32,726 bases of DNA from a virus. Both the position numbers and the translations under genes were made by a program. The stretch is from positions 1 to 32,726 of IMG/VR virus record IMGVR_UViG_3300022752_000244, one strand, 5' to 3'. A model generated the notes under the pieces. The model was given only the letters and a program-made list of their open reading frames with translations. It ran no database searches and had not been told where the DNA came from. This document shows, in pieces, positions 7,540-31,982 of this stretch (positions are counted from its first letter, which is position 1; the number at the start of each line of letters is the position of its first letter).

Positions 7540-7814
7540 ACTGGCTAAATCTAGAGACAAATGAAAGAAAAAATCTTTCTCTCTGGATGATGTTTGGTGG
7601 TGCAACCGTATTTACTATATTTGCTGGTGTAGGGTTATGGTTAGTAGCGGCTAATTTAAAATATGTCTTTTATTTAGCAGTACTGGCACATATTCAGATC
7701 ATTACTATAATGACTGGATTTATAGCACAATTAGTAAAAAGAAGAATAAGTGCCGGAAAAGAAGGCATAACAATTACTGACTCAGGCACTGAATCAGGAG
7801 AAACAAATGTTTAA
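7536..7814 (+). CDS. Holin candidate, two membrane segments
   Basis: This 92-residue protein has two hydrophobic helices (about residues 16-38 with GGATVFTIFAGVGLWLV and 41-65 with YVFYLAVLAHIQIITIM), a basic loop KRRISAGK after the second and a polar C-terminus. Size, topology and position directly before the endolysin gene, overlapping it by 8 nt, fit a class II holin. Holins share little sequence, so the call rests on context. Confidence 0.65.
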   Translation: MNWLNLETNERKNLSLWMMFGGATVFTIFAGVGLWLVAANLKYVFYLAVLAHIQIITIMTGFIAQLVKRRISAGKEGITITDSGTESGETNV

Positions 7815-8253
7815 ACTAAGCCAACGCTCTCTAGATAAACTAGCAGGTGTAAATCCAAAACTAGTTGCAGTGGTTAAAAGAGCAATAGAATTAAGTACAG
7901 TGGATTTTGGTGTTTCAGAAGGTCTAAGAACCCTAGAGACACAAAAGAAATATGTAGCCTCAGGTAAATCCCAGACTATGAAGAGTAAGCATCTAGACGG
8001 TCATGCAGTTGATCTAATAGCTTATGTAGATGGACAGATTTCTTGGGAATTAAATCTATATGACAATATAGCTGATGCAATGGCAAAAGCCGGTAAAGAA
8101 CTAGGTGTATCAATTTGTTGGGGAGCGGCATGGAATGTTCCTGATATTACAAAGTGGACTGGAACTATGGAATCGGCAATGAACCATTATATTGATGAGA
8201 GAAGAAAAGAAGGAAAGAGACCATTTATTGATGGTCCTCATTTCCAAATTTAA
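7807..8253 (+). CDS. Endolysin, M15-family L-alanyl-D-glutamate peptidase
   Basis: This 148-residue protein matches T5 Lys-type zinc peptidases over its whole length. SKHLDGHAVD holds zinc ligands H62 and D69, and DGPHF near the C-terminus holds D142 and H145, with the three-residue spacing of the T5 enzyme. VSEGLRTLETQKK is also typical. It cleaves the peptide stem of peptidoglycan after holin action. No signal peptide is present, so export needs the holin. The last 15 bases before ATG 8269 hold the next gene's GGAG. Confidence 0.9.
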   Translation: MFKLSQRSLDKLAGVNPKLVAVVKRAIELSTVDFGVSEGLRTLETQKKYVASGKSQTMKSKHLDGHAVDLIAYVDGQISWELNLYDNIADAMAKAGKELGVSICWGAAWNVPDITKWTGTMESAMNHYIDERRKEGKRPFIDGPHFQI

Positions 8254-10967: not shown

Positions 10968-12164
10968 ATGATTAGTGTTATAGACGCCAGCGGTAGTACT
11001 CAGACTATAAATACTTTACCAGACCTTGGTGTTGCAGCCGCCGCAAGCAGTTTGCCTATAGTTGGAGCAGAAGACGCCATTAGTGGCACGATTTCTGTAG
11101 CAAACTCAAACTATGCTACTCCAACTATAGCCACTCCTACTACAAACTCATCAGTGGAAATCACCACAAATGGGTACAATACTGTAGTTATTCAAGTTTC
11201 TGGTACTTTCACAGCGACATTACAAGTACAGGGTACCGTAGACGGGACCAATTGGTTAACGCTAGGCGGATCTAGACTCCACACTTACACTAGTACAGTA
11301 ACCACTTCAATTACTTCCGCAGGTATTTACACAGCAGACGTTACTGGTATTTCTAAGATAAGAGTAACTTCTACTACTGCAGCCGTAACTGGTACAGCAA
11401 ATATCTATTTGTCTGTAGCCACTACAAGCGGACTACCCGGGGTATTGGGTGCTGTAAGCACAGTAAGTTTAATTTCTGCAGCCAGCTTAAACATTCCTGT
11501 AGTTGCTGTAGATGTTTCCAGCGCAGCTATAACTTCTACAACCACTACAAGTGCTATTGTTCCGGCAACTGGTTGCAGTTATGAAGTCAATATTCCAGTA
11601 ACTGCTGTTTCTGGTACAAATCCTACATTGGATGTTGTAATTCAAGAAAGCGATGATTCTGGAACAAATTGGTTCGATGTATATCATTTCGAGAGAATTA
11701 CAGCTACTGGTATATATAGATCTCCAAAACTACCTTTAATGGGTAATAGAGTAAGGTATGTTCAAACAATATCTGGGACAAGTCCAAGTTTTACAAGAGC
11801 TATAAATAGACTTCAGTCTTCCGATACGGCTGTTCCTTTAAGAAGATATTTTGACAGAACATTTAATAACACACAAAATCTTAGTGCGACTTCCTCAAGT
11901 TATACAATGGGAAGCCCCAGTAAGAATATGCAATTAATTGTGTCCGCAGGTACTATTAGTGGAACCGCACCTACTTTCAAGGTGCAGGGTTCAGAAGATA
12001 ATACTAACTGGTATGATATTCCGGGCTTAATTGTTACTGCACAGAATGCAACTACAACACATCAAACTGTATCGGATATTAGAGCCCCATTCTTACGAGC
12101 AGTAGTAACAGCAGCAGGTGCGAGTGCTAGTCTTAATTATATTTGTTTAAAGGTATACGGATAA
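10968..12164 (+). CDS. Second modular structural protein, 398 aa
   Basis: This beta-rich, threonine/serine-rich protein shares a closely similar segment with the C-terminus of the 796-residue protein: VNIPVTAVSG, then QESDDSGTNWFDVYHFERIT and GNRVRYVQT (here about residues 207-284). Two more SxDGTNW-like motifs (VDGTNWLTLGG at about 100, SEDNTNWYDI at about 345) suggest three related carbohydrate- or Ig-like lobes in one chain. It probably forms a surface appendage with its paralogue. GAAGGAG precedes ATG 10968. Confidence 0.7.
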   Translation: MISVIDASGSTQTINTLPDLGVAAAASSLPIVGAEDAISGTISVANSNYATPTIATPTTNSSVEITTNGYNTVVIQVSGTFTATLQVQGTVDGTNWLTLGGSRLHTYTSTVTTSITSAGIYTADVTGISKIRVTSTTAAVTGTANIYLSVATTSGLPGVLGAVSTVSLISAASLNIPVVAVDVSSAAITSTTTTSAIVPATGCSYEVNIPVTAVSGTNPTLDVVIQESDDSGTNWFDVYHFERITATGIYRSPKLPLMGNRVRYVQTISGTSPSFTRAINRLQSSDTAVPLRRYFDRTFNNTQNLSATSSSYTMGSPSKNMQLIVSAGTISGTAPTFKVQGSEDNTNWYDIPGLIVTAQNATTTHQTVSDIRAPFLRAVVTAAGASASLNYICLKVYG

Positions 12165-12165
12165 A

Positions 12166-13452
12166 ATGATAGTAAGCAGAGCTGACATCCCTACGGATGT
12201 AATTGTACAATACCCCGGCGCTTTTATGCGGGTTCCAATTGCGAATTATCTAAAAGAACTAGAGGTTGATCCTCTACCCTCTCAGATAGCTCTCATAAAT
12301 GGAATAAATAATCCCAAATACCGCTTTGGGTGCGCAGCTCTGTCTCGCCGTCAGGGTAAAACCTATATTGCAAACGTTGTGGGCCAGGTAGTTTCACTAG
12401 TACCCGGCTCCAATGTTCTAATCATGGCACCAAACTATAATCTCTCTAGTATTTCATTTGATTTACAAAGATCACTTATTAAGAGATTTAATCTTGAAGT
12501 TGCTAAAGATAACGCTAAAGACAGAGTTATTGAGCTATCTAATGGCTCCACAATCCGAATTGGTTCGGTTAATCAGGTTGATAGCTGCGTAGGGCGCTCC
12601 TACGATCTTATTATCTTTGACGAAGCCGCGCTCACAGATGGTCTAGATGCCTTTAACGTATCGCTCAGACCTACTCTAGATAAACCAAATTCAAAAGCAC
12701 TCTTTATTTCTACCCCTCGTGGTAAGAATAACTGGTTTTCAAAATTATTTGATCGAGGATTTAGTGATGAATTCCCAGAATGGTTTTCTGTCAAGGCTAC
12801 TTATAAGGATAATCCTAGAATGTCTGAACAGGATGTTGCAGAAGCACGTCGATCAATGTCAGATGCAGAGTTTAGGCAGGAATACGAAGCTGACTTCTCA
12901 ACCTTCGAAGGTAAATGTTGGCAGATCAAAGACGATTGTATACGTACCTTTGAACTCAATCTTAAGAAGTGTGATGTTTTCGCCGGGCTCGACCTCGGGT
13001 TTAGAGATCCAACCGCCTTCGTGGTAGTCGCATATAACTGGGAAGATGAAAACTTCTATATTCTAGATGAGTACCTGGATAGTGAGGCCGTAACTTCAGG
13101 ACATGCTAAGAGTATTAGAGCACTTATGGACAAGTGGAATATAGATTACATCTATATCGACTCCGCAAACCAGCAGCAGCGTTATGACTTCGCACAAGAA
13201 TACGATATTCCAACTACAAATGCGAAGAAATCCGTACTAGATGGAATTGGTTATGTAGCATCTCTAGCGGATAATGATAGAATTATCATTGATCCCGAAC
13301 TTAAACATGTATTATACTCTGTAGATCAGTATCAGTGGGATCCAAATCAAAGTCTACAGAAAGAAAAGCCACTACATAATGAAGCGTCACACATGGCCGA
13401 TGCTCTTAGGTACGCACTTTATAGTTATAAAACTAGTGTTGGTGGATTCTAA
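12166..13452 (+). CDS. terL: Terminase large subunit
   Basis: This 428-residue packaging motor has an N-terminal ATPase with Walker A variant SRRQGKT (about residues 60-66), Walker B LIIFDEAA (D152, E153) and motif III FISTPRG, followed by an RNase H-like nuclease with GLDLGFRDPTAF (D276), YIDSAN (D332) and HMADALRYAL (D412). The length and all three nuclease acids are as expected, so it should translocate and cut DNA. Only one base separates it from the upstream stop, and its ribosome site is weak, so coupling is likely. A new promoter follows at 13491. Confidence 0.95.
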   Translation: MIVSRADIPTDVIVQYPGAFMRVPIANYLKELEVDPLPSQIALINGINNPKYRFGCAALSRRQGKTYIANVVGQVVSLVPGSNVLIMAPNYNLSSISFDLQRSLIKRFNLEVAKDNAKDRVIELSNGSTIRIGSVNQVDSCVGRSYDLIIFDEAALTDGLDAFNVSLRPTLDKPNSKALFISTPRGKNNWFSKLFDRGFSDEFPEWFSVKATYKDNPRMSEQDVAEARRSMSDAEFRQEYEADFSTFEGKCWQIKDDCIRTFELNLKKCDVFAGLDLGFRDPTAFVVVAYNWEDENFYILDEYLDSEAVTSGHAKSIRALMDKWNIDYIYIDSANQQQRYDFAQEYDIPTTNAKKSVLDGIGYVASLADNDRIIIDPELKHVLYSVDQYQWDPNQSLQKEKPLHNEASHMADALRYALYSYKTSVGGF

Positions 13453-13543: not shown

Positions 13544-13936
13544 ATGTCAGCAACAACTCTGCTTCGCGACCCAATCAAATATGTTCGCGACCGAGCAAAG
13601 TCTAGATATGATAAAGGCTCTCAATGTGAAATTTGCGAAGCGACAACCTCTCTTGACTTTCACCACTACTATACGATGACCCCATTGTTTAATAAGTGGT
13701 GTAAATCAAAAGGTTACTCAGTTAAAACTGTAGACGACATCTTGAAAATCAGAGACGAATTTATACTTGAAGAAGAAGATAAAGTCTATAATCAAACTGT
13801 AACGTTGTGTCACGATCATCACTTGAAGCTTCACAGTGTCTATGGTAAGGATCCAGCTCTTTCTACTGCTGAAAAGCAGAAAAATTGGGTAAAAATCCAA
13901 AAGGAGAAATATGAAGCTAGGAAGTTGGCTAGTTGA
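13544..13936 (+). CDS. HNH endonuclease
   Basis: The 130-residue protein carries a zinc-supported HNH fold: C28xxC31, then the H40-H41 pair, N83, C89xxH and H92-H93. It lies between TerL and portal, where HNH proteins are often found and can assist terminase cutting. Alternatively it is a mobile homing nuclease, as its own promoter would also suit. The insertion of about 45 residues between the HH and the final C-x-x-HH is long for the family. The stop overlaps the portal start by 26 nt. Confidence 0.85.
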   Translation: MSATTLLRDPIKYVRDRAKSRYDKGSQCEICEATTSLDFHHYYTMTPLFNKWCKSKGYSVKTVDDILKIRDEFILEEEDKVYNQTVTLCHDHHLKLHSVYGKDPALSTAEKQKNWVKIQKEKYEARKLAS

Positions 13937-15089
13937 GAAATTAAATCCTGGTCAGCGCTGGATCTCCTATATGGAGCCTCAGAGTCCTACCACTGAACCA
14001 GAACAGTTATATATTAACTACTATGAAACATTAGAAATAGTTAATAGGGCAGTCAATATGATTATTGATGATGCCGCAGAAATAAATTTTAAAATAGGAA
14101 CTGAAAAGATTGGATTTCCAAAAGTATCTGGTGTTAAAAGAAAAACGGTAGAAACACTATTAAATGTTCAACCCAACCCATATCAAGATATACACGCTTT
14201 CAGACGCAATCTTGTTATGGATTTAATACTAGATGGAAATGCTTTCATATACTATGATGGTGCGTACTTATATCAACTACCTGCAAATAAAGTTACTATA
14301 TACTCAGATGAAAAGACATATGTTGAAAAATATACTTTTCAGGGTACAGTAGACTTTAAAGTAGATGAGATAATTCATATTAAAGATAATAGCTCAAGAT
14401 CACTTTATAGAGGAGCCTCTAGACTAAGACCAGCTTTAAGAACAATGAAGCTAATGAAGTCAATGAGAGACTTTCAGGATAATTTCTTTACAAATGGAGC
14501 AGTACCTGGCCTAGTAATTAGAAGTCCAGATGTACTTAGCCATCGCATTAAAGAAAGAATGAAAGAAGACTGGAAAACGTCATATAGACCTCAATCGGGC
14601 GGAAGAAGTCCGTTAATTCTAGACGGCGGCATGGAAGTAGATCCTCTCACTACTGTGAGTTTCAAGGATCTTGATTTTGCTGCATCCATTGAGTCTAATG
14701 AAAAAGTAATTCTAAAAGCTCTAGGCGTACCTCCAGTTTTAGTAGATAGTGGTAATAATGCTAACCTAAGACCTAATCATAGATTATATTACTTAGAAAC
14801 TATTATACCTATAATTAAGAAAATGAACTCTGCTTTCCAGATGTTCTTTGGATTTGATATAAAAGAAGATGTTGCTGGTATTCCTGCACTCCAGCCAGAA
14901 CTAAGAGACGAAGCAGCATTCTACTCTACACTAGTAAATGGTGGTATTCTAACCGCCAATGAAGCTAGAGAGGGCATGGGAAGAGCACCACTGGGTGGTC
15001 ATGACGATATTAGAGTGCCGCAAAATGTAGCTGGAAGCGCTGCAGACCCCTCACAGGGCGGTAGGCCTCAAGATAATACAGGAAATTAA
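13911..15089 (+). CDS. Portal protein, HK97 family
   Basis: This 392-residue protein forms the dodecameric DNA gate at one capsid vertex. It is recognised by the family pattern: an N-terminal YYETLEIVNRAVNMIIDDAA, VMDLILDGNAFIY, a KDNSSRSLYRGASRLRPA region, and the clip/stem part with LKALGVPPVLVDSGNNANLR. Length and position after TerL fit. The C-terminus is a disordered GGRPQDNTGN-like tail. GGAG lies before ATG 13911 inside the HNH gene. Confidence 0.9.
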   Translation: MKLGSWLVEKLNPGQRWISYMEPQSPTTEPEQLYINYYETLEIVNRAVNMIIDDAAEINFKIGTEKIGFPKVSGVKRKTVETLLNVQPNPYQDIHAFRRNLVMDLILDGNAFIYYDGAYLYQLPANKVTIYSDEKTYVEKYTFQGTVDFKVDEIIHIKDNSSRSLYRGASRLRPALRTMKLMKSMRDFQDNFFTNGAVPGLVIRSPDVLSHRIKERMKEDWKTSYRPQSGGRSPLILDGGMEVDPLTTVSFKDLDFAASIESNEKVILKALGVPPVLVDSGNNANLRPNHRLYYLETIIPIIKKMNSAFQMFFGFDIKEDVAGIPALQPELRDEAAFYSTLVNGGILTANEAREGMGRAPLGGHDDIRVPQNVAGSAADPSQGGRPQDNTGN

Positions 15090-15363: not shown

Positions 15364-18300
15364 ATGGCTAAAGTAGGTGGAGAAGAAATTGATCTAACTC
15401 CTACCGATGGTATGGCCAGAGAAGCCCAAAAAGCACTAGACTGGAGAAAAGAAGGACATTCAGGAGGTACCTCTGTAGGACTTGCTAGAGCTAGGCAACT
15501 AGTAAATAAGCAAGAACTATCACCAAGTACAGTACGCAGAATGCATAGTTTCTTCAGTAGACACGAAGTAGATAAGAAGGGCGAGGGATTTTCTCCCGGT
15601 GAGCCAGGTTATCCATCTAAGGGTAGAGTTGCTTGGGCACTGTGGGGTGGAGACCCAGGCCAAACATGGGCTAGAGCTAAGTCAGAGACACTAGATCGTC
15701 TTGAAGGCAAAAGCATAGATTATACTAAAGAATATACTGAAGAAGAAGATATAGAAGAAAAAGCTGGCCCACAAGATTTAAAAGTTGGAGATTTTGTAAC
15801 CTGGGGATCTTCAGGTGGAACAGCAAAAGGTAAAATAGAGCGAATTGTTAGAGATGGATCCTTAAATGTACCAAATAGTTCATTTACTATTGAAGGAACA
15901 AAAGAAGATCCCGCAGCTCTTATTAGAATTTATAAAGACGGAAAAGAAACCGATACTCTAGTAGGACATAAATTTTCTACGCTAACAAAAGCATCTTCTA
16001 AATCATTAGAGGATACGCCATGTCCTGTAGTAACTCAAAATAGTGAAGCAAATATTGCAAATCACTTAATAGCAATTCAACAAGCTAATTTAGGACCAGC
16101 AGACCCTACCGCCCATAGTGATACATACTGGAATTATATGGCGGAACAGTGGATGGTTCCATCCGATGAAGCTAGAGTTCGTCAATGCCAAAATTGCGAG
16201 TATTATGACAACTCTCCAAAAGTTTTAGACTGTTTAAAGTCTTCAACTTTTAAAGCCTCGGATTTACCAGTTACTCCTAAATGGGCCGATGTTACTGCAG
16301 AAAGTGGACATTGCACTAAATGGGATATTACTTGCACTAGTATAAGAACATGTGTAAGTTGGGAGCCAGATGAGGGCGAAGAAGATACTGGAGAAATAGA
16401 CATGGAAGATGATACATCAAACCTAGACGGTCAAATGATTTCTCTTAGTATGAACAAACCAGTAACTAAGATGTTCAAATTTGACTCTACAATCAAAGCA
16501 GTAGACGCAGGTGAAGGCGAGTTAAAGATTGATGGATATGCAAGCACAGTATCAGTAGATCGTTCAGCAGATGTAATTTTAGCCTCTGCATGGAATAAAT
16601 CTGGTGGATTAAATAACTATAAAGCTAACCCAATTCTTTTATTCAATCATAACTATGACAAACCAATAGGTAAAGTTGTAGAGATGGGTACAGATAATAA
16701 AGGTTTAAGAATTAAGGGTATCATCAGTAAGAGTGCTGGAGATGTTTATAATCTTGTTAAAGAAGGAGTTCTAACTACCTTTTCTGTAGGTTTCCTAATT
16801 AAAGATGCAGACTACAATAAGGAAAGTGATGGACTAATAATAAAAGATGCAGAGCTTCTAGAAGTATCTGTAGTATCAGTACCTTGTAACCAAGACGCTA
16901 CATTCTCTGTAGCTAAATCATTTGATAATCAAGATGATTATCTAAATTTTAGAAAACAATTTGAAAATGCTCTAGGTGGTCAGCCTTCCGCTGAAACCGG
17001 AGGCTCATCAGAGGGCGCTAAAACGGCGTCAAGGAAATTAAAAATGGAAGAAAATACAAACGACATGATCCAGAAGGCTGTTGCAGACGCTCTTGCAGCT
17101 CAGAAAGCAGCAGCAGAGGCAGAAGCTGCAAAGGCTGCGGATGCTAAGGCAGCCGAAGAGAAGATCGTAGCTAAGGTACTAGAGACCGGATCAGAAAAGC
17201 TATATGCTGAGCTAGAGAAGCGCTTTAAGGACGACAAGACTGAACTAGAGACAAAGCTAGAAGGTCTACGTACTGAAATCTCCGAGAAGTCAACAGAACT
17301 ACAGGCTATTGCTAACAGCAAGCGCGTATTCGCAGATCGTAATGGTGGCGATTCTTGGAAGAAGGAACTCCTACCAGAAATGGAGAACGCATTCCTATTA
17401 GGACGTATCACTGGAAAGGGATATGAGACTAATTATGCTAAGTCACTTATGGAGAAGGCAAACACCATGTCTTCAATCGCAGTATCAAGTGACAGTTTTG
17501 AGCGTGAAGTTTCAACAAATATCGAACGCGAAATCCAACTAGAACTAGTTCTAGCTCCACTATTCCGCGAGATCCAAATGAATACTGCTAGTATGATTCT
17601 ACCAATCATGCCAGATACAAGCTATGCACAACTTTCAGCAAGTTCAGGTACTACAACAGTAGGTAGCGGATCAGGCTCATATCAGGCTGGATCACTTGAT
17701 GAACGTTCAGGTACTACAGGAGCTGGTACTGGTACTGGTATTCTTCTAAGAGAAATCGATCTACGTACTATTAAGCTAGTTGCTAAGAGCTACCTAGGTA
17801 ATGAAACTGAAGAGGACGCAATTATTCCTATTCTTCCACTACTACGTGAGGCAATGATTCGTCAGCATGCTCGTGGTGTAGAAAACCTAATGCTACTTGG
17901 TGGTGCAACAAGCGCTGGTGGCGCTTACTCAGCAGCTGCTCTAGGTACATATACAAAGGGTCTAGTAGCTTATGCAGAGACTCAGTCACGTAATATTACT
18001 AACAGTGCAACCGTTAACGGAACAGGTGGTACTGACGCAACAAGCGTAACTGGTATCGCACTTCTAGCTCTACGTAAGAAGATGGGTAAGTATGGTATTC
18101 GTCCAGGTGATGTTGTTTACATCGTTTCACAGACTGCATACTTCGATCTACTACAGGATTCAGAGTTCCAAGACTTCAACCTCGTAGGTAACATCGCAAC
18201 CAAGATGACTGGTGAAGTTGGTCAGATCTTCGGATCATCAGTACTAGTTTGTGACGAATTCGCAAACACAGGAGCTACAGGAACTTACGCAGCTCTAGCT

Positions 18301-18462
18301 GTTAACGTACGTAACTTCGTTGTTCCACGTCAGCGTGGTATCACAGTAGAAAGCCAGTACCTAGTTGAGCAGCAGTACAGAGTAATGACTACAACTCAGC
18401 GTCTAGGTTTCCGTGAAATCATTGATAACGCACCAGCAGTTGTTGGTCTAAAGTACGCTTAA
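15364..18462 (+). CDS. Accessory domains-prohead protease-scaffold-major capsid fusion, 1032 aa
   Basis: Five parts lie in one frame. Residues 1-115 are a phage domain with AREAQKALDWRKEGHSGG and VAWALWGGDPG. Residues 137-209 are a small beta domain like the DUF2945/Tudor-type HVA1 family (KVGDFVTWGSSGGTAKGKIE). Residues 219-340 form a cysteine-rich domain with CQNCEYY. Residues 360-545 are an HK97-type prohead serine protease (H429 in LFNHN, S474 in TFSVGF). From 561 a helical, alanine-rich scaffold leads into an HK97-fold capsid protein. Normally protease and capsid are separate genes. The protease should remove the scaffold and free the capsid subunit during maturation. Codon use changes at about residue 560. 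Confidence 0.9.
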   Translation: MAKVGGEEIDLTPTDGMAREAQKALDWRKEGHSGGTSVGLARARQLVNKQELSPSTVRRMHSFFSRHEVDKKGEGFSPGEPGYPSKGRVAWALWGGDPGQTWARAKSETLDRLEGKSIDYTKEYTEEEDIEEKAGPQDLKVGDFVTWGSSGGTAKGKIERIVRDGSLNVPNSSFTIEGTKEDPAALIRIYKDGKETDTLVGHKFSTLTKASSKSLEDTPCPVVTQNSEANIANHLIAIQQANLGPADPTAHSDTYWNYMAEQWMVPSDEARVRQCQNCEYYDNSPKVLDCLKSSTFKASDLPVTPKWADVTAESGHCTKWDITCTSIRTCVSWEPDEGEEDTGEIDMEDDTSNLDGQMISLSMNKPVTKMFKFDSTIKAVDAGEGELKIDGYASTVSVDRSADVILASAWNKSGGLNNYKANPILLFNHNYDKPIGKVVEMGTDNKGLRIKGIISKSAGDVYNLVKEGVLTTFSVGFLIKDADYNKESDGLIIKDAELLEVSVVSVPCNQDATFSVAKSFDNQDDYLNFRKQFENALGGQPSAETGGSSEGAKTASRKLKMEENTNDMIQKAVADALAAQKAAAEAEAAKAADAKAAEEKIVAKVLETGSEKLYAELEKRFKDDKTELETKLEGLRTEISEKSTELQAIANSKRVFADRNGGDSWKKELLPEMENAFLLGRITGKGYETNYAKSLMEKANTMSSIAVSSDSFEREVSTNIEREIQLELVLAPLFREIQMNTASMILPIMPDTSYAQLSASSGTTTVGSGSGSYQAGSLDERSGTTGAGTGTGILLREIDLRTIKLVAKSYLGNETEEDAIIPILPLLREAMIRQHARGVENLMLLGGATSAGGAYSAAALGTYTKGLVAYAETQSRNITNSATVNGTGGTDATSVTGIALLALRKKMGKYGIRPGDVVYIVSQTAYFDLLQDSEFQDFNLVGNIATKMTGEVGQIFGSSVLVCDEFANTGATGTYAALAVNVRNFVVPRQRGITVESQYLVEQQYRVMTTTQRLGFREIIDNAPAVVGLKYA
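17044..18462 (+). CDS. Nested in-frame start: scaffold plus major capsid protein, 472 aa
   Basis: ATG 17044 (residue 561 of the long frame, MEENTNDMIQKAV) has AAGGA 8 nt upstream. From here lysine codons switch from mostly AAA to mostly AAG, and CGT/CGC arginine codons replace AGA, the bias of highly expressed genes. The 472-residue product, a coiled delta-domain of about 100 residues plus an HK97 capsid protein, has the length of an ordinary capsid precursor. Such a start would give many capsid subunits per protease-bearing chain. The internal start is inferred; protein data are lacking. Confidence 0.6.
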   Translation: MEENTNDMIQKAVADALAAQKAAAEAEAAKAADAKAAEEKIVAKVLETGSEKLYAELEKRFKDDKTELETKLEGLRTEISEKSTELQAIANSKRVFADRNGGDSWKKELLPEMENAFLLGRITGKGYETNYAKSLMEKANTMSSIAVSSDSFEREVSTNIEREIQLELVLAPLFREIQMNTASMILPIMPDTSYAQLSASSGTTTVGSGSGSYQAGSLDERSGTTGAGTGTGILLREIDLRTIKLVAKSYLGNETEEDAIIPILPLLREAMIRQHARGVENLMLLGGATSAGGAYSAAALGTYTKGLVAYAETQSRNITNSATVNGTGGTDATSVTGIALLALRKKMGKYGIRPGDVVYIVSQTAYFDLLQDSEFQDFNLVGNIATKMTGEVGQIFGSSVLVCDEFANTGATGTYAALAVNVRNFVVPRQRGITVESQYLVEQQYRVMTTTQRLGFREIIDNAPAVVGLKYA

Positions 18463-24357: not shown

Positions 24358-27300
24358 ATGGCAAATAATACTGGAGAGTATACATTATTAATTAATGCTA
24401 TAGGTGATTTAACCAAGGCAATAAAGCAGAATAAGAACTTTGCTGCTTCGGCAAACGAGGCAGCAGCGGCTCAAGATAGAGCACGTAAAGCTTCAAAGAA
24501 GCACAATGATATATTAAACGGTGGTGTAGCAAGTGCTAATAACGCCGGACGAAGTATGTCCAAATTAATAGAAACAGTCGGCGGTAATAATAGTGGACTA
24601 GTAGCCGCATACGCAACACTAGCTACTAATGCGTTCGCTGTTAGTGCCGCTTTTAGTGCTTTAAGAAATGCTGCTCAAGTAGAGCAGATGATGAAAGGTC
24701 TAGAGGTACAAGGCGCAAGAACCGGCAAAAATCTAAAGGGACTATCAAATGATCTCCAAGAGATAACCAATTATTCTATTAGTGCTGCTGATGCTATGCA
24801 GGCAACTGCACTTATGAGCTCCGCTGGATTTAGCTCCCAAGGGATGAAGGACCTAGTCACAGTTGCAAATAATGCCGCATTAGCACTAGGAAGAAACGTT
24901 CCAGATTCTCTAGATAGAATTAGTAAGGGTGTTACTAAATTGGAGCCCGAGCTACTAGATGAACTTGGTATTATGACCAAATTAACAGAAGCTCAATCAG
25001 CTTATGCTCTTGAAAATAATAAAAGCGTTGGCTCTTTAACTTCATTCGAAAAAAGACAGGCAATGCTTAATGCTGTAGTTGCAGAAGGCACCGCTAAGTT
25101 TGGTGGATTATCTGACCAGGTAGGAGCCAATCCTTATGATAAATTAGCAGCGACCTTCAGTAATCTAACAAACAATGTATTAGGCTTTGTAAATACTGTC
25201 GCAGGTCCTCTCGCTGCAGTATTAGGAAGTAATCAAGGCCTACTACTTGGTGCTTTAATTTTATTCGTAAGCTCAATTAGAAAACAAATGCTGCCAGCGT
25301 TAGCTCAAATGAGCGAGAATGCTATAAAAGCAAAAGATATTCACTTACAAGAAGCTGAAGCAATCAAAACAAAGACAGCAGCAACACTAGCAGATGCTAA
25401 AGCAACTAGATTAGCCGCTTTAGAAACAGCTAGAAGTTCTGTTGGTACTATTGCTGGTAAAGCAAATCCTAGAAGTTTTAGAGTTAAAGAACTACAAGAG
25501 GGAACATTATCTCTCAAAGAAATGAATAAAGAATTAGATAGATTAAATAAATCTATAACTGGTAGAGAAAAAAGTATAGAAGGAACTGGGTTTAAAGTAG
25601 ACCCATCAAAGATACCACAAAAGAAAGTAGAATTGCAACTAATAAAACAAGAGCGTGATAACTTAGCAGCTTTAATAAAATTAGAAACTGAAGGTGATTC
25701 TACTATTAAGCCTTTAAGAGAAGAGGCAATAAAAGGTAAATTAGAATATATAAAACAACAAAAATTAGCAGCTATGGAAGGTAAGAAAGCAGAAGCCTTA
25801 GAGGCAGCCTCTTCTGGTACTATAAAAGGTGTAATAGAAAGTTGGGGGAAAGCTAAAGAAGCTGTTGAAGAGTATAAAAAATCCATTAAAGCTGAAGGAA
25901 TGCAAAGTAGGGTACAAGAAGGTGGAAATATAAAACCACAAACAGGACTCGGAAGGCTCTCAGAAAAAATTAAAGGATCAATTGGAAGTGTAGGAATATA
26001 TACATCTACTATGACTGCTGGAATTATGTCATTACTTCCTTATATTGGTACTGCTACTACCGCATTATCTGCCGCCTGGTCAGTATATCAGAACTTCATA
26101 AAGTCAGATGCTGATAAGGCCCGTACAGAAGCTCTTAATAAGTTAAAAGAAACTTTAGATAATACAAGAAAATCAGTAGAAGAATTAAATAGGCTAAATG
26201 AAGCTTCTATTCCTATTGGATTAAAAGCTGCACAAACCCTAACTATTCAATCAAATGCCACTGCTGAAATAGCAGGAGCTTTTGATGAAGTCAAAAATGC
26301 GGCGGAAAAGGCAAAAAATAATACCGAAACAGATAGTATCTGGAAAGTTATCATAGGCTCCCCGGAAGACGCAGTATCATACGCTACTGGAGTGGCTAAG
26401 GATAGCGAGTTCTTTAAGCCTATAGCAGACGAGCTTAAAAATTCTACAGCATCGTATGGAGGAGCCGCTGCTGGTGCACTTATAGGGGGAATGGCTGCAT
26501 TCTTTGCCGGACCAGCAGGTCCACTAGTTGCAGCAGCAACTGTACCTCTAGGTGTTGCAATAGGTAACAGACTAGGAACAGCATTCGCACAATTACTACC
26601 AGAAGAGCTCAATGGGATAGATGAAGAAGCAATAGCAAGCTTTAGAGCTATGGATCAGCTAAGTAAAATACTAAATAAAGACGTATATGATAGCATGATC
26701 AAAGCCGCTGGCGGGGCTGACAATTTAGCTAAGAGCCCGGCTTTAAGAGACGAGTTCTTACGACAGGCTGCTTCAGCTTATGTTGGAGTCGCGGATGCAG
26801 TAAAATCTCTACAAGAAGCTTTTAAACAAACTGGAACAGCTATTACCCAGTTTTTTACAAGTGCTATTCCAACAACACCTTTTGACGGCTTAGTTAAGGG
26901 GTACTCCTCAGTTAATAAAGCATTCCAAGAACTAGATAGTACTATTGGAGGCTCTAATATGAAGGAACAGGTCAAGCTTATGTCCTCTATGCCTGAGGAA
27001 ATGATTAAACTTCTATCTGTACCACAGCAGCAAATTATACAGAATCTTCAAAAAGAATCCGCACAACTAGAGTATAATAAGACTTTAATAGATGACTTAG
27101 TTAAGAAAGGTAAAGACAGATCCAACGAAGAAGAAAGACAGTTAAATTACTTAACTCAACAAAATATCTCTATTAATAAAAATATGGAAACATATTATAA
27201 AGAGGGAGAGGCTATAAAGCAGTCCCTACGAGATACAGAAGCTACTCTAAAATCCAACCAAAGACAATCTATATTGTATAATAGTCAGTTAAGCCTGGTA

Positions 27301-30300
27301 AACGCTATATCTAGTGCTAACTCCGAGATATACTCTAAGAGCGCGGAGGGTGAGAAGGCTAGAATCCAGAGGCATAATGAGGCTATTAGACTTCAGCAAG
27401 CGCAGTTAAATCTTCAAATAAGTATAACCGAAACATATATTGCACAAGCAGAAGCTCAAATTGATCTATTAGAAATACAACAAGTAGCACTAAAAGTAAC
27501 TAAAGAAATGGATACTGCTTCTATGCAGAAGGCTCGTAATGATGCGGAAACAGCCAAAAATATAGCTTCAACAGCAGCTCTAAGTGCTGGACTAACACAA
27601 GAGTATCTAGATAGTATTGACGCCGTAATAGCTCGTAAGAAGCAGTTAGGTCCTGACGCTTTAATGAAAGCTACTATTGATTATAATAGAACAGGTGACT
27701 TACTGAAGGCAGCTGAAGCCTATGGATCTGCTCAAAAAGGATTAGAAATTGCTTCGTTCCGAGCAGCTAATTCTATAAATATTGAATCTCATAAAGATCA
27801 AATATCTAGTTTTAATCAGCAAGTATCAGCATTAAGAAATTCAGTAGCCGCTTTAGATGAGAGTATCATTGGTACAAATCAAGAAGCAGGATTAATAGCA
27901 AAAAGACAGGCAGAACTAGCCAAGGCTGAAGAGGCTCGTCAGTTACAGATAAAAGAAATCACTATTGATAATAATGAGGTTCTTAGAGCCTCTTATAATT
28001 TAACAAAACAGCGTGCAAACGCTATATATGAAACTATAAGAGCTACAACAATACAACTATCTAAAGACAAAGAGAGAGCAGCACAGGAAGCTGGAAGCAA
28101 TATAAAAATACTTGAAGCAGAAAGAAAGATTTACGAAGGTAGATTAAAGGATCGTCCTAATATGGCTCAACCAGAAAAAGAGTCATATGAAGCAGCTATA
28201 AAAAGTTTAGATACTCAAATAGCGCAGGAGAATCAGCTCAATATTTTAGGTCAGCAAAGGCTAGACGTATTAGCTCAGCAGAGTATTTTACAGTCTATAA
28301 TTGGACAAGGACTAGGTGACTCCCTGCAGAAGCTACAGGAGTCTATTCAGGGACAGCAGAAATTACTCGATCTTACCAATGAAGTAGCACAAAAAGAGAT
28401 GCAAATAGCTCAGAATAGAAGTAAGCTAGCTATTACTAAAATGGGAGGTACTGTTGATGAGGATACTCAAAAGCAGTTCGCAGTAGAGGCTGCTGAGATA
28501 GCTTATAAGGCTGCTCAAGAAAATTATATTTTAAGACAGCAATCAATTGATGCAGAATATGCTCTATTAAAAGTACAGAGAGAAGCAGAGTCTGGTAATA
28601 TAAAGGCTCAAATATATTTAATTAAAGCTTTCGCTCAAGTATTTAATGTACAGAGCAAAGAACTACAAGATAACTTAGATGCTCTAACTTCTGCAGCCGC
28701 ACGTATTGAAGCAACAGATACTACAGCAATGAAGAATCTGGCTAAAAGATCGGCGGCTGCTGATCTAGAATTGTCTCGTCAAGCTTTGGAACAGGCTAAA
28801 GCAGAGAGAGATACTGTAGGTATGCCAAAATGGCTATCACCTATAACTAATCTGATGGCAAGAATAGAATCTAGAAATAGAGCTGAAGCTACCGCTAATT
28901 CTCCAATAAATGAGTCTAGGACTCCAACTATTGTAAGATTAGACGCTCAAGTCGAGGAGCTGAAATCCCAAGTTTCATTGCTAGTTCAAATTAGAGATAA
29001 TTTGAATAAGGTATTACCGGCAGTAATTCCTCAGACTAATACAGAAACAGTAGGAGAACAGATAAGCTCATCAGTAGCTACTTCGCTTTCAAAAAGCCAA
29101 GTTTGGCAAAATCTTATACAACAAGAATCTGGTGGTAGACAGTTTAAGAAAAACGGAGAAACCCTAACTTCTAGCAAAGGGGCAATAGGTATTGCGCAGC
29201 TAATACCAAAATATGGTCCAGATTTTGCAAAAATGGCTGGAACCACTTGGGATGAAAGTAAGGCTAGAAAGGATAAAGATTATAATTTAAAATTAGGTTA
29301 CGCTAATTTTGAAAATCTAATAAAGCATTATGGTGGTGATTTATTAAAAGCAGCCGCCGCATATAATGCTGGCCCTGGAAAGATTGATAAACTTATAGAA
29401 GAAAAAGGAAAAGATTGGAGATCAGGACTGGGTAGAGAAACTAGAGATTATATAAAAACAATCTTTAAAGGTATGGCACAAGAAAAAAGAGCCATACTAA
29501 AAAGCTCCTCAGATATTGCAGCTAATCCATCTGTAATAAATACTACTGATAATGGTACAATTGGTACTCCAGAAATCTCAACTCTAGTAGCCGTTCCGGC
29601 CTCCTTAGAGACTACTGCTACCGCAGCGGGACAGGCTGCTGAAAGTGCTAAACTTAAATTCTCGGATCTCTTTGAAACAATAAACACTGCCTTCGCAGTT
29701 TCTATGGGTATCATGGAAGATCTTGGTGCTCAAATGTCAGAAAGACTAGGGCAGGACTTCGGTCCACAAGGCAAAATACTAAGCTCAATAGCTAATCTAT
29801 CAAAAGAACTAGAAAAGTTTGCTACCAACATGTCAAAAAGTTGGGAAGGCTTATTTCCAAAGATGCCAGTATTGGAAGGTATTGGTGGTCCAATGAATAA
29901 CTTCCCAGTTGCTATGAATGCACAAAGTGTTAGCTCTGTATCCGGAATGACACAACCTGTTAATACAAGTCTAGCTGGATCTGCTTCTGCTGCAGCGCCT
30001 GCAGCTCCTTTAACTGGAGGAGTAGATAACATTGGTAGTAGTTTATCTGGATTATCCGGTCTATCTCAAACTACTACTGAATTAACTGGCGGATTAGATA
30101 ATCTAGCAAGTAAAGCTTCGGAAACTGCTAAATTAAGCACAGATAGTATCAAAGCAGCCAGCGTTGAGGTAGATACTGCACAAACTAAAACTACCGAAGG
30201 TTTCAATAAACAAATGCAATCTGCTTCAGTTGCATTTGGTGCTATAGCTGGAATGATTGGTGCAGTAGCTGGACTATTAAAGTCCTCTTCTGATGCTAAA

Positions 30301-31068
30301 ATAGCCGGTATAGATAAAGAAATCGCAGCTGAACAAAGGCGTGATGGTAAATCCGCAGCTAGTGTCGCTAAACTAGATGCTCTCGAAAAGAAGAAAGATA
30401 ATCAAGCTAGAAAATCTTTCAATACTCAAAAGAAGCTAATGATGGCACAGGCTGTTATGGCAACAGCTGCAGGTGTGGCCAACGCGCTAGGCAGTGCTAA
30501 ACCTCCAATGAACTTTATCTTAGCAGGTATAATAGGTGCAATGGGTGCAGCTCAGATAGCTATTATTGCCAGTACTCAATATGATAGTAGCTATAAGGCA
30601 CCTACAGCAGCTATGCCATCAAATCTATCAATAGGCAAGCGCTCTGATACAGTAGACCTAGCCAAAGGTCCAAATGCTAGCGCAGGCGGAGAAGTTGGCT
30701 ACTTAAGAGGAGCATCTGGACAGGGTACTAATGCTACTAATTACCGCACGGTAGGCTCCGCCTACGGTGGCGAGCTAATGAGAGGCTACGGTAATCGTGG
30801 ATTCGTTGTTGGTGAGAAGGGGCCTGAAGTTATTACTCCAGAAACGCCAATCTCAGTTACACCAGCTAATGACGTTGGTTCAGCACAACCAATCAACGCT
30901 AATTTCACAATCCAAGCTCTTGACTCAAACGGTGTCCAAGACATTCTAGTAAGTCAGAAGGGTAATATTATTAAGATGCTTAGAGAAGCTGCTAACGCTT
31001 CAGGCAAGACATTCATGGAAGACGTAAACGTTAATGTTTACACAAGACCTCAAGTTAACAGGTTATAA
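24358..31068 (+). CDS. Tape measure protein with lytic transglycosylase domain, 2236 aa
   Basis: Hydrophobic N-terminal segments (ANNAGRSMSKLIETVGGNNS and following), a glycine/alanine membrane-like stretch at about 700-740, and long coiled-coil regions (about 900-1500) mark a tape measure protein. Residues about 1578-1705 are a lysozyme-like SLT domain with the catalytic ES of QQESGGRQF, SKGAIGIAQLIP and AAAYNAGPGKID, expected to open peptidoglycan during DNA entry. The last 250 residues hold a hydrophobic segment and a tail-tip-like end. At about 0.15 nm per residue it implies a tail of roughly 330 nm. ATG 24358 directly follows the chaperone stop. Confidence 0.95.
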   Translation: MANNTGEYTLLINAIGDLTKAIKQNKNFAASANEAAAAQDRARKASKKHNDILNGGVASANNAGRSMSKLIETVGGNNSGLVAAYATLATNAFAVSAAFSALRNAAQVEQMMKGLEVQGARTGKNLKGLSNDLQEITNYSISAADAMQATALMSSAGFSSQGMKDLVTVANNAALALGRNVPDSLDRISKGVTKLEPELLDELGIMTKLTEAQSAYALENNKSVGSLTSFEKRQAMLNAVVAEGTAKFGGLSDQVGANPYDKLAATFSNLTNNVLGFVNTVAGPLAAVLGSNQGLLLGALILFVSSIRKQMLPALAQMSENAIKAKDIHLQEAEAIKTKTAATLADAKATRLAALETARSSVGTIAGKANPRSFRVKELQEGTLSLKEMNKELDRLNKSITGREKSIEGTGFKVDPSKIPQKKVELQLIKQERDNLAALIKLETEGDSTIKPLREEAIKGKLEYIKQQKLAAMEGKKAEALEAASSGTIKGVIESWGKAKEAVEEYKKSIKAEGMQSRVQEGGNIKPQTGLGRLSEKIKGSIGSVGIYTSTMTAGIMSLLPYIGTATTALSAAWSVYQNFIKSDADKARTEALNKLKETLDNTRKSVEELNRLNEASIPIGLKAAQTLTIQSNATAEIAGAFDEVKNAAEKAKNNTETDSIWKVIIGSPEDAVSYATGVAKDSEFFKPIADELKNSTASYGGAAAGALIGGMAAFFAGPAGPLVAAATVPLGVAIGNRLGTAFAQLLPEELNGIDEEAIASFRAMDQLSKILNKDVYDSMIKAAGGADNLAKSPALRDEFLRQAASAYVGVADAVKSLQEAFKQTGTAITQFFTSAIPTTPFDGLVKGYSSVNKAFQELDSTIGGSNMKEQVKLMSSMPEEMIKLLSVPQQQIIQNLQKESAQLEYNKTLIDDLVKKGKDRSNEEERQLNYLTQQNISINKNMETYYKEGEAIKQSLRDTEATLKSNQRQSILYNSQLSLVNAISSANSEIYSKSAEGEKARIQRHNEAIRLQQAQLNLQISITETYIAQAEAQIDLLEIQQVALKVTKEMDTASMQKARNDAETAKNIASTAALSAGLTQEYLDSIDAVIARKKQLGPDALMKATIDYNRTGDLLKAAEAYGSAQKGLEIASFRAANSINIESHKDQISSFNQQVSALRNSVAALDESIIGTNQEAGLIAKRQAELAKAEEARQLQIKEITIDNNEVLRASYNLTKQRANAIYETIRATTIQLSKDKERAAQEAGSNIKILEAERKIYEGRLKDRPNMAQPEKESYEAAIKSLDTQIAQENQLNILGQQRLDVLAQQSILQSIIGQGLGDSLQKLQESIQGQQKLLDLTNEVAQKEMQIAQNRSKLAITKMGGTVDEDTQKQFAVEAAEIAYKAAQENYILRQQSIDAEYALLKVQREAESGNIKAQIYLIKAFAQVFNVQSKELQDNLDALTSAAARIEATDTTAMKNLAKRSAAADLELSRQALEQAKAERDTVGMPKWLSPITNLMARIESRNRAEATANSPINESRTPTIVRLDAQVEELKSQVSLLVQIRDNLNKVLPAVIPQTNTETVGEQISSSVATSLSKSQVWQNLIQQESGGRQFKKNGETLTSSKGAIGIAQLIPKYGPDFAKMAGTTWDESKARKDKDYNLKLGYANFENLIKHYGGDLLKAAAAYNAGPGKIDKLIEEKGKDWRSGLGRETRDYIKTIFKGMAQEKRAILKSSSDIAANPSVINTTDNGTIGTPEISTLVAVPASLETTATAAGQAAESAKLKFSDLFETINTAFAVSMGIMEDLGAQMSERLGQDFGPQGKILSSIANLSKELEKFATNMSKSWEGLFPKMPVLEGIGGPMNNFPVAMNAQSVSSVSGMTQPVNTSLAGSASAAAPAAPLTGGVDNIGSSLSGLSGLSQTTTELTGGLDNLASKASETAKLSTDSIKAASVEVDTAQTKTTEGFNKQMQSASVAFGAIAGMIGAVAGLLKSSSDAKIAGIDKEIAAEQRRDGKSAASVAKLDALEKKKDNQARKSFNTQKKLMMAQAVMATAAGVANALGSAKPPMNFILAGIIGAMGAAQIAIIASTQYDSSYKAPTAAMPSNLSIGKRSDTVDLAKGPNASAGGEVGYLRGASGQGTNATNYRTVGSAYGGELMRGYGNRGFVVGEKGPEVITPETPISVTPANDVGSAQPINANFTIQALDSNGVQDILVSQKGNIIKMLREAANASGKTFMEDVNVNVYTRPQVNRL

Positions 31069-31119: not shown

Positions 31120-31148
31120 TTGACTTTTTAAGTTTTTTCGTGTATAAT
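31120..31148 (+). promoter_or_regulatory. Promoter of the homing-endonuclease-like gene
   Basis: TTGACT at 31120-31125, a 17-bp spacer and TATAAT at 31143-31148. The start codon follows 10 nt after the -10 box, so the leader is only about 3 nt. Confidence 0.8.
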
Positions 31149-31157
31149 TATATTATT

Positions 31158-31982
31158 ATGAAAAATTTTAAATGGACAAAAGAAAACATTAACTTTTTAA
31201 TAGAAAACTACTCCTCTAAAGGGGCACCTTATTGTGCCTTACAACTAGAAACTAGTGTTGGCTCCGTACATGGAAAAGCTAATAGGTTAGGTATTAAATC
31301 TAGAAAGAATCAAAAAAGAACTCATTCAGAATATGAAAAGGAGTTAATGGATAAAGATATAGATTTTGTACCTCTTGAATCTTACATAGATAGTCATACC
31401 CCTATACTTCATGAATGCTTTAATAATCATATTTCTAGTATTAAACCATATTCTGTACTTAGTGGCAGAGGATGTAAACAGTGCGATACCATAGATAGAA
31501 CAAAAACACACGAGCAATACTTAATCGACTTAAGTAATATACATTCTGATATACAAGTAATCGATCAGTACAAAAATAGTATTACTCCCATAAGGCATTC
31601 TTGCTCGCATGGACATATATGGTGGGCTAGACCAGGATCTATTTTAAATACTAAATCACACTGCCCAGAGTGCGCAAATTACAGCTTTAAATTGACTAAA
31701 CCAGCAATACTTTATTATTTAAAAATAACAAAAGAAAATTTAGTGTACTATAAAATAGGTATAACAACTAGATCGGTTAAGGAAAGGTTTAGAACTGAGC
31801 CTAAGAGTACTATAATTAAGATCATACAAGAAATACCTTATACTACAGGCAAAGAGGCCAAAGATGAAGAGTCCAGGATACTCCAACAGTACTCTGCACA
31901 TAGACAAAATATACCGGAGTTACTAGTATCCGGAGGCAACACCGAACTTTTTGAATTCGATGTTCTTGGATTAGATATATAA
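31158..31982 (+). CDS. Homing-endonuclease-like protein: HTH, two zinc modules, GIY-YIG-type domain
   Basis: The 274-residue protein starts with a SANT-like helix-turn-helix (about 5-48, WTKENINFLIENYSSKGAPY). Two treble-clef-like modules follow (HECFNNHISSIKP with GCKQC, and HSCSHGHIWWARPGS with HCPEC). A C-terminal domain (YYLKITK, YYKIGITTRSVKERF, EEsRIL-type helix) is like divergent GIY-YIG/T5orf172 nucleases. ATG 31158 is chosen because the upstream start codons lie in the promoter. Between a terminator and a minor tail gene, with its own promoter and AT-rich codons, it looks like a free-standing mobile gene. Confidence 0.75.
   Translation: MKNFKWTKENINFLIENYSSKGAPYCALQLETSVGSVHGKANRLGIKSRKNQKRTHSEYEKELMDKDIDFVPLESYIDSHTPILHECFNNHISSIKPYSVLSGRGCKQCDTIDRTKTHEQYLIDLSNIHSDIQVIDQYKNSITPIRHSCSHGHIWWARPGSILNTKSHCPECANYSFKLTKPAILYYLKITKENLVYYKIGITTRSVKERFRTEPKSTIIKIIQEIPYTTGKEAKDEESRILQQYSAHRQNIPELLVSGGNTELFEFDVLGLDI

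Follow-up and report, generated by a model that had tools for sequence, protein, structure and literature searches.

How can a gene that joins a prohead protease and a major capsid protein in one chain build a phage head? A shell takes hundreds of capsid subunits and few proteases, and a protease on each subunit would crowd the prohead. This puzzle of stoichiometry is raised by a marine phage gene at positions 15364-18462 of the window, i.e. the entire stretch of 32,726 nt from the IMG/VR record IMGVR_UViG_3300022752_000244 that was analysed here. The gene is a single intact frame of 1032 residues with a good Shine-Dalgarno motif at its start. Its domains, two neighbouring genes and the control signals proposed for it are listed in Table 1.

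Table 1. Coordinates of the head gene, of its parts and proposed control signals, and of two neighbouring genes in the window.
Feature	Position	Strand	Remarks
Terminase large subunit	12166..13452	+	Pfam/PHROG
Portal protein	13911..15089	+	Pfam/PHROG
Full-length frame, DUF-Tudor-Cys-protease-scaffold-capsid	15364..18462	+	1032 aa
Helical DUF (PHROG 2859), residues 1-115	15364..15708	+	Five helices, pLDDT mostly >90 (predicted model)
Hva1/Tudor-like SH3 barrel, residues 136-210	15769..15993	+	Pfam PF11160 and structure match
Cys-rich domain, residues 219-345	16018..16398	+	Core CxxC...GxCx6Cx5C
S78/HK97-type prohead protease, residues 372-524	16477..16935	+	H429, S474
Near-frozen synonymous sites, codons 526-561	16939..17046	+	Candidate RNA element for control of the internal start
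Two predicted hairpins (16970-17013 and 17014-17030)	16970..17030	+	Just 5′ of the internal ribosome-binding site; fold z -2.0
AAGGA, Shine-Dalgarno-like motif	17031..17035	+	8 nt before the internal ATG
Proposed separate scaffold and capsid product from Met561	17044..18462	+	472 aa, from ATG 17044
Ala/Glu/Lys-rich coiled scaffold (delta-like), residues 561-699	17044..17460	+	Helices 601-654 in a low-confidence model
HK97-fold major capsid protein, T5 type, residues 700-1032	17461..18459	+	Alignment with the mature T5 capsid chain (5tjt) starts here

Protease, scaffold and capsid in one frame

A sequence-only reading of this DNA had described one chain of 1032 residues with the domains named above, and this description is borne out by the frame itself, by Pfam and PHROG matches, by profile matches to T5 capsids and by colinear independent contigs. 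The same reading had assigned an HK97-type serine protease with H429 and S474. Pfam Peptidase_S78 was indeed matched at residues 377-522 (E 1.8e-19), the scores lie above the curated cut-offs (PF04586, 70.9 bits vs. 21; TIGR01543, 76.8 vs. 59), and both catalytic residues are unchanged in 20 of 20 aligned sequences. By family score and catalytic residues, this part is an S78/HK97-type prohead protease, and it is predicted to cleave the capsid precursor. The PHROGs detected on the chain are 2859 (unknown function, residues 9-105), 80 (head maturation protease) as well as 617 and 267 (major head protein). In profile searches, the capsid part matched T5-type capsid structures with E-values of 1.4e-63 to 1.4e-71, including the structure of T5 pb8 (5tjt) over the whole mature domain (E 1.4e-63). 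In the alignment, the mature T5 capsid chain starts at window residue ~700, from which we infer a maturation cut near residue 699/700. Structure prediction, suggested earlier as a check, was informative for the Tudor-like barrel (Z ~7-8) and for the DUF helices, and it failed for the chain as a whole, as the full-length model reached a mean pLDDT of 48.9 and is too poor for use.

The gene is part of a T5-type module in the order terminase, portal, a small gene, the head gene, head completion, a T5 p143-like gene, tail terminator, major tail, p140-like baseplate tube and pb9-like distal tail proteins. Directly 5′ of the terminase gene, at 10968-12164, lies an ORF of 398 aa whose product has an F5/8 type C (carbohydrate-binding-like) domain. 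An endonuclease-like gene (31140-31982; T5orf172 and HNH-type PHROGs), probably a homing-type insertion, separates an ORF of 2236 aa (24358-31068, tape-measure-like by position) from a distal tail protein, and a Peptidase M15-type protein at 7807-8253 is a probable endolysin.

The same colinear frame is present in independent contigs that are 83-88% identical to the window gene: L002 (1057 aa), L003 (969 aa, lacking the Tudor part only), L004 (truncated) and L061 (1036 aa). Purifying selection acts on all domains, with dN/dS between ~0.04 and 0.25. The earlier statement that protease and capsid normally have a gene each understates the frequency of the fusion. About 34 related marine T5-type contigs carry a protease-scaffold-capsid fusion of 687 aa without the N-terminal 370 residues, and T5-type fusion relatives also occur in contigs of marine MAGs, mostly labelled Gammaproteobacteria. 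Such chains are annotated as “major capsid protein” in the cultured phages CRP-811 (DUF-Tudor), CRP-406 and S-CBS3 (both DUF), and database families for the protease-capsid fusion already exist, one in NCBIfam and one in PHROG. S78-capsid fusions are thus a known kind, which is common, named in databases and found in many cultured phages. Among the loci fetched by homology, whose counts are not natural frequencies, the architectures were DUF-protease-capsid (n=21), DUF-Tudor-protease-capsid (n=11), DUF-Tudor-Cys-protease-capsid (n=4, window included) and DUF-Cys-protease-capsid (n=1, L003). The combination DUF-(Tudor)-Cys-protease-capsid is rare and was seen in the window and four contigs. The new points are this Cys-bearing architecture and, more broadly, the reading of the fusions as genes with a nested start.

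N-terminal accessory domains

Residues 136-210 are a Hva1/Tudor domain, as the Pfam cut-off is passed by Hva1_TUDOR (PF11160; residues 142-195, E 2.8e-6, 27.8 bits vs. 24.1) and Tudor/SH3 barrels are matched structurally over 55-60 residues with an rmsd of ~2-3. L003 lacks exactly this part, which shows that the Tudor domain is a removable module. The fold of the DUF gave no convincing match among solved structures, and one of its structure-match lists was taken up by the Tudor part. The DUF (PHROG 2859) also follows portal proteins, from several portal families, and elsewhere it precedes a ClpP-type prohead protease and adjoins a ferritin-like domain. In L148, L151, L154 and L201, from several phage types, it is attached to the C-terminus of the portal ORF or close to it. 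With no Pfam family of its own, it seems to be a widely distributed module of head assembly. In L175 (2814-6002), the DUF and a Tudor-like part occur together with a ferritin-like domain and a weak S78-like protease in one protein of 1063 aa.

For the most part, the Cys-rich domain is encoded by a small gene of its own, which was confirmed in at least 592 viral stretches; in the alignment behind the model of the domain, its first half was misplaced. Of 83 stand-alone loci, eleven have a DUF or Tudor gene no more than 200 nt away, and fusion to Tudor was found twice. In L094 (3953-4594) and L124 (3962-4591), a stand-alone Cys-rich domain is followed by a Tudor-like one, the order being opposite to that of the window gene. 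Stand-alone copies are labelled “high potential iron-sulfur protein” in public records, but an identity as HiPIP found no support in the sequence: neither a Pfam match at E 10 nor a PDB match by profile was obtained, and the record consulted has no PF01355 match. In L140, the Cys-rich domain is replaced by a DUF5824-like domain. The latter lies at residues ~247-294 there and at residues 253-338 in L209, and the N-terminal slot looks swappable.

In summary, DUF, Tudor and Cys-rich domains recur as modules in the head genes of phages; they are neighbours elsewhere and joined here. They may act inside the prohead, near the portal or the protease, and could serve there as anchoring or cargo modules.

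A candidate internal start after the protease

Met561, the first residue of the scaffold, is unchanged in 20 of 20 fusions although the linker around it varies, and the start of the capsid gene of T5-like phages aligns to window residue 558, three residues before it. The corresponding Met of the 687-aa relatives is preceded by AGGAG or GGAG at a distance of 6 nt, and this motif falls on codons for different amino acids. Across 38 T5-type fusions, the Shine-Dalgarno interaction at the corresponding Met has a mean of -6.7 kcal/mol, compared with -2.0 kcal/mol for other in-frame ATGs. Furthermore, position 2, counted from the internal Met as 1, is enriched in S, T and A, as in true N-termini.

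For a comparison across lineages, the Met was picked blind to the motif, by taking the ATG that comes first downstream of the S78 domain, and a site of at most -5.4 kcal/mol was counted as strong. Such sites were found in 19 of 24 lineage representatives, compared with 14% of other in-frame ATGs (Fisher 1e-11), and in 16 of 22 held-out loci gathered afterwards, compared with 13.5% (Fisher 2e-9); the lineages are related, and both tests somewhat overstate independence. The held-out set takes in eleven cultured phages, including VP882, phiHAP-1, RcCronus, ep3 and R4C. When synonymous codons were shuffled with the protein held fixed, the combined p was 9e-6, with singly significant results in only 7 of 24 lineages. 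Besides this last figure, two observations in this comparison count against an internal start: the motif in the window itself is only moderate (-5.4 kcal/mol, equalled by 8% of other ATGs and fourth of the 22 in-frame ATGs of its gene), and an internal site was looked for in the cultured fusion phage S-CBS3 and none was seen.

Directly upstream, the coding sequence is conserved at the nucleotide level. Over codons 531-561, i.e. the 93 nt ending at the internal start, pS between the window and its three relatives is 0.023 vs. 0.52 gene-wide, a value as low being reached in 0 of 940 windows. A second lineage has a pS of 0.074 vs. 0.446 (0 of 628 windows as low) and a third one 0.161 vs. 0.400 (15 of 605). 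The long frozen element is absent from the lambda-portal-type fusions, in which the Shine-Dalgarno motif itself is kept; this absence also counts against the nested start. An overlapping reading frame was rejected as the cause of the freeze, no other frame being open through the element. Within the window lineage, substitutions in the element fall almost only in loops and bulges of the predicted hairpins, and hence no covariation is seen. In two sister lineages, with few distinct sequences, the pairing of short hairpins at the equivalent place survives double changes. The search of Rfam returned no match in the element, apart from a minus-strand isrG match far below its cut-off, and no sigma-70-like promoter was found on its + strand, phage and other promoter types being outside this test.

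A conserved internal start codon, its Shine-Dalgarno motif and the constraint on nucleotides indicate that the window gene is probably nested. Translation from Met561 is a strong prediction from these sequence comparisons, and the ratio of the two products would follow from it. The earlier reading implies a giant chain in every copy; this is probably wrong, as the conserved start downstream of the protease is expected to yield scaffold and capsid as a protein of their own. Nothing found in the open-access literature searched describes protease-capsid fusions with an internal start, which is a weak negative.

A Shine-Dalgarno motif and ATG also stand just before the protease, at 16402 in the window (Met347, -6.4 kcal/mol) and at 4515 in L140 (Met339, -9.4 kcal/mol). 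No synonymous constraint was seen at that place. A start there might yield a product like the 687-aa fusions.

Proposed model, rival explanations and known systems

We consider it likely that the window gene is the head gene in a T5-type siphovirus module, that it arose when protease and scaffold-capsid genes became joined in frame with the capsid start retained, and that its two products co-assemble. In the simplest history, a T5-like protease gene would have lost the stop that separated it from the capsid gene, the ribosome-binding site of the latter being retained within the coding sequence. Ribosomes starting at 15364 would produce a minor chain of 1032 aa with accessory domains, protease, scaffold and capsid, and those starting at ATG 17044 the main scaffold-capsid chain of 472 aa, equivalent to T5 pb8. 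Co-assembly through the shared capsid and scaffold parts would place the protease and the three accessory domains inside the prohead. A cut by the S78 protease near 699/700 would then release a mature capsid protein of ~333 aa, the rest being destroyed or freed. The nested start would meet the stoichiometry problem because many 472-aa chains assemble with few full-length ones.

That every capsid subunit bears all 699 N-terminal residues in a true, self-processed polyprotein, with the internal motif a coincidence, appears improbable to us. The internal Met, the Shine-Dalgarno motif and the synonymous freeze are conserved in several lineages, and some 77 kDa extra per subunit would, as a rough estimate from general capsid sizes, occupy the interior of a T=7 or T=13 prohead largely or completely. 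A polyprotein is favoured by the fusion of S-CBS3, which is without an internal site, and by a paper on Gifsy-2, cited in PMC7762592, whose title speaks of a “tripartite capsid gene”. Alternatively, the stretch 16939-17046 might chiefly be a promoter, an RNA-processing site or an mRNA-stability hairpin that leads to a separate capsid transcript, the internal start being a consequence. This would agree with an element of ~93 nt, longer than a ribosome-binding site needs, a length that also counts against the nested start; the two predicted hairpins and the confinement of nearly all substitutions to bulges and loops point the same way. Given the lack of a sigma-70-like site on the + strand and of an Rfam match, and a fold z of only -2.0, we hold this to be even less probable than the polyprotein. 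As to an assembly or sequencing error that joined two genes, for which nothing speaks beyond the unusual length, its probability is negligible. The colinear frame of the independent contigs and the dN/dS values of the domains exclude the frameshift or missed stop at 16900-17100 which the sequence-only reading had named as its own refutation, and dozens of related fusions exist.

The preferred reading, a nested gene with two starts, may hold more widely, and we lean towards this extension with less confidence than we have in the model of the window gene. Across many tailed phages, protease-capsid “fusions” would be nested genes in which a conserved ribosome-binding site within the coding sequence starts the scaffold-capsid protein and sets the ratio of protease to capsid, in the T5-type group with an RNA element of ~93 nt with hairpins. 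The full-length chain would be a minor carrier of the protease and of swappable DUF, Tudor, Cys-rich or DUF5824 domains into the prohead. If this is true, the built-in second start solves the stoichiometry puzzle and explains how fusions build capsids. Many genes annotated as “major capsid protein” would have to be reread with regard to the true precursor length, the start of the scaffold and the choice of clones for structures. A cargo principle would also emerge, by which fusion to the minor long chain is enough to bring a module into the prohead.

Several known systems resemble the window gene in part. In the fusion proteins of NF045541 and of PHROG 617 and 4523 (VP882, phiHAP-1, ep3, FoX, RcCronus, S-CBS3, CRP-811), S78 protease, scaffold and HK97 capsid likewise share one frame. 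With 53.3 bits vs. a cut-off of 525, the window gene is not a member of NCBIfam NF045541 but works alike; it differs from such fusions by a capsid of the T5 type rather than the PF05065 type and by the added Cys-rich domain. Gifsy-2 reportedly has protease, scaffold and capsid in one gene as well, going by the title of the work of Effantin from 2010. Its protease is said to be ClpP-like, in contrast to the S78 protease of the window, and we know of no accessory domains in it. In lambda C/Nu3, the scaffold portion of a protease-scaffold gene is made on its own from an in-frame internal start; the capsid is a separate gene there, whereas the nested product of the window would comprise scaffold and capsid. 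The T5-like phages (Tequintavirus) share with the window the order of head genes, an S78-like protease, capsid homology, T5-type neck and tail genes and a capsid precursor whose N-terminal scaffold is removed at maturation. In contrast to the one frame of the window with its three extra N-terminal domains, they encode protease (210 aa) and capsid (458 aa) by separate genes, and the proposed nested product of 472 aa comes close to the latter in size.
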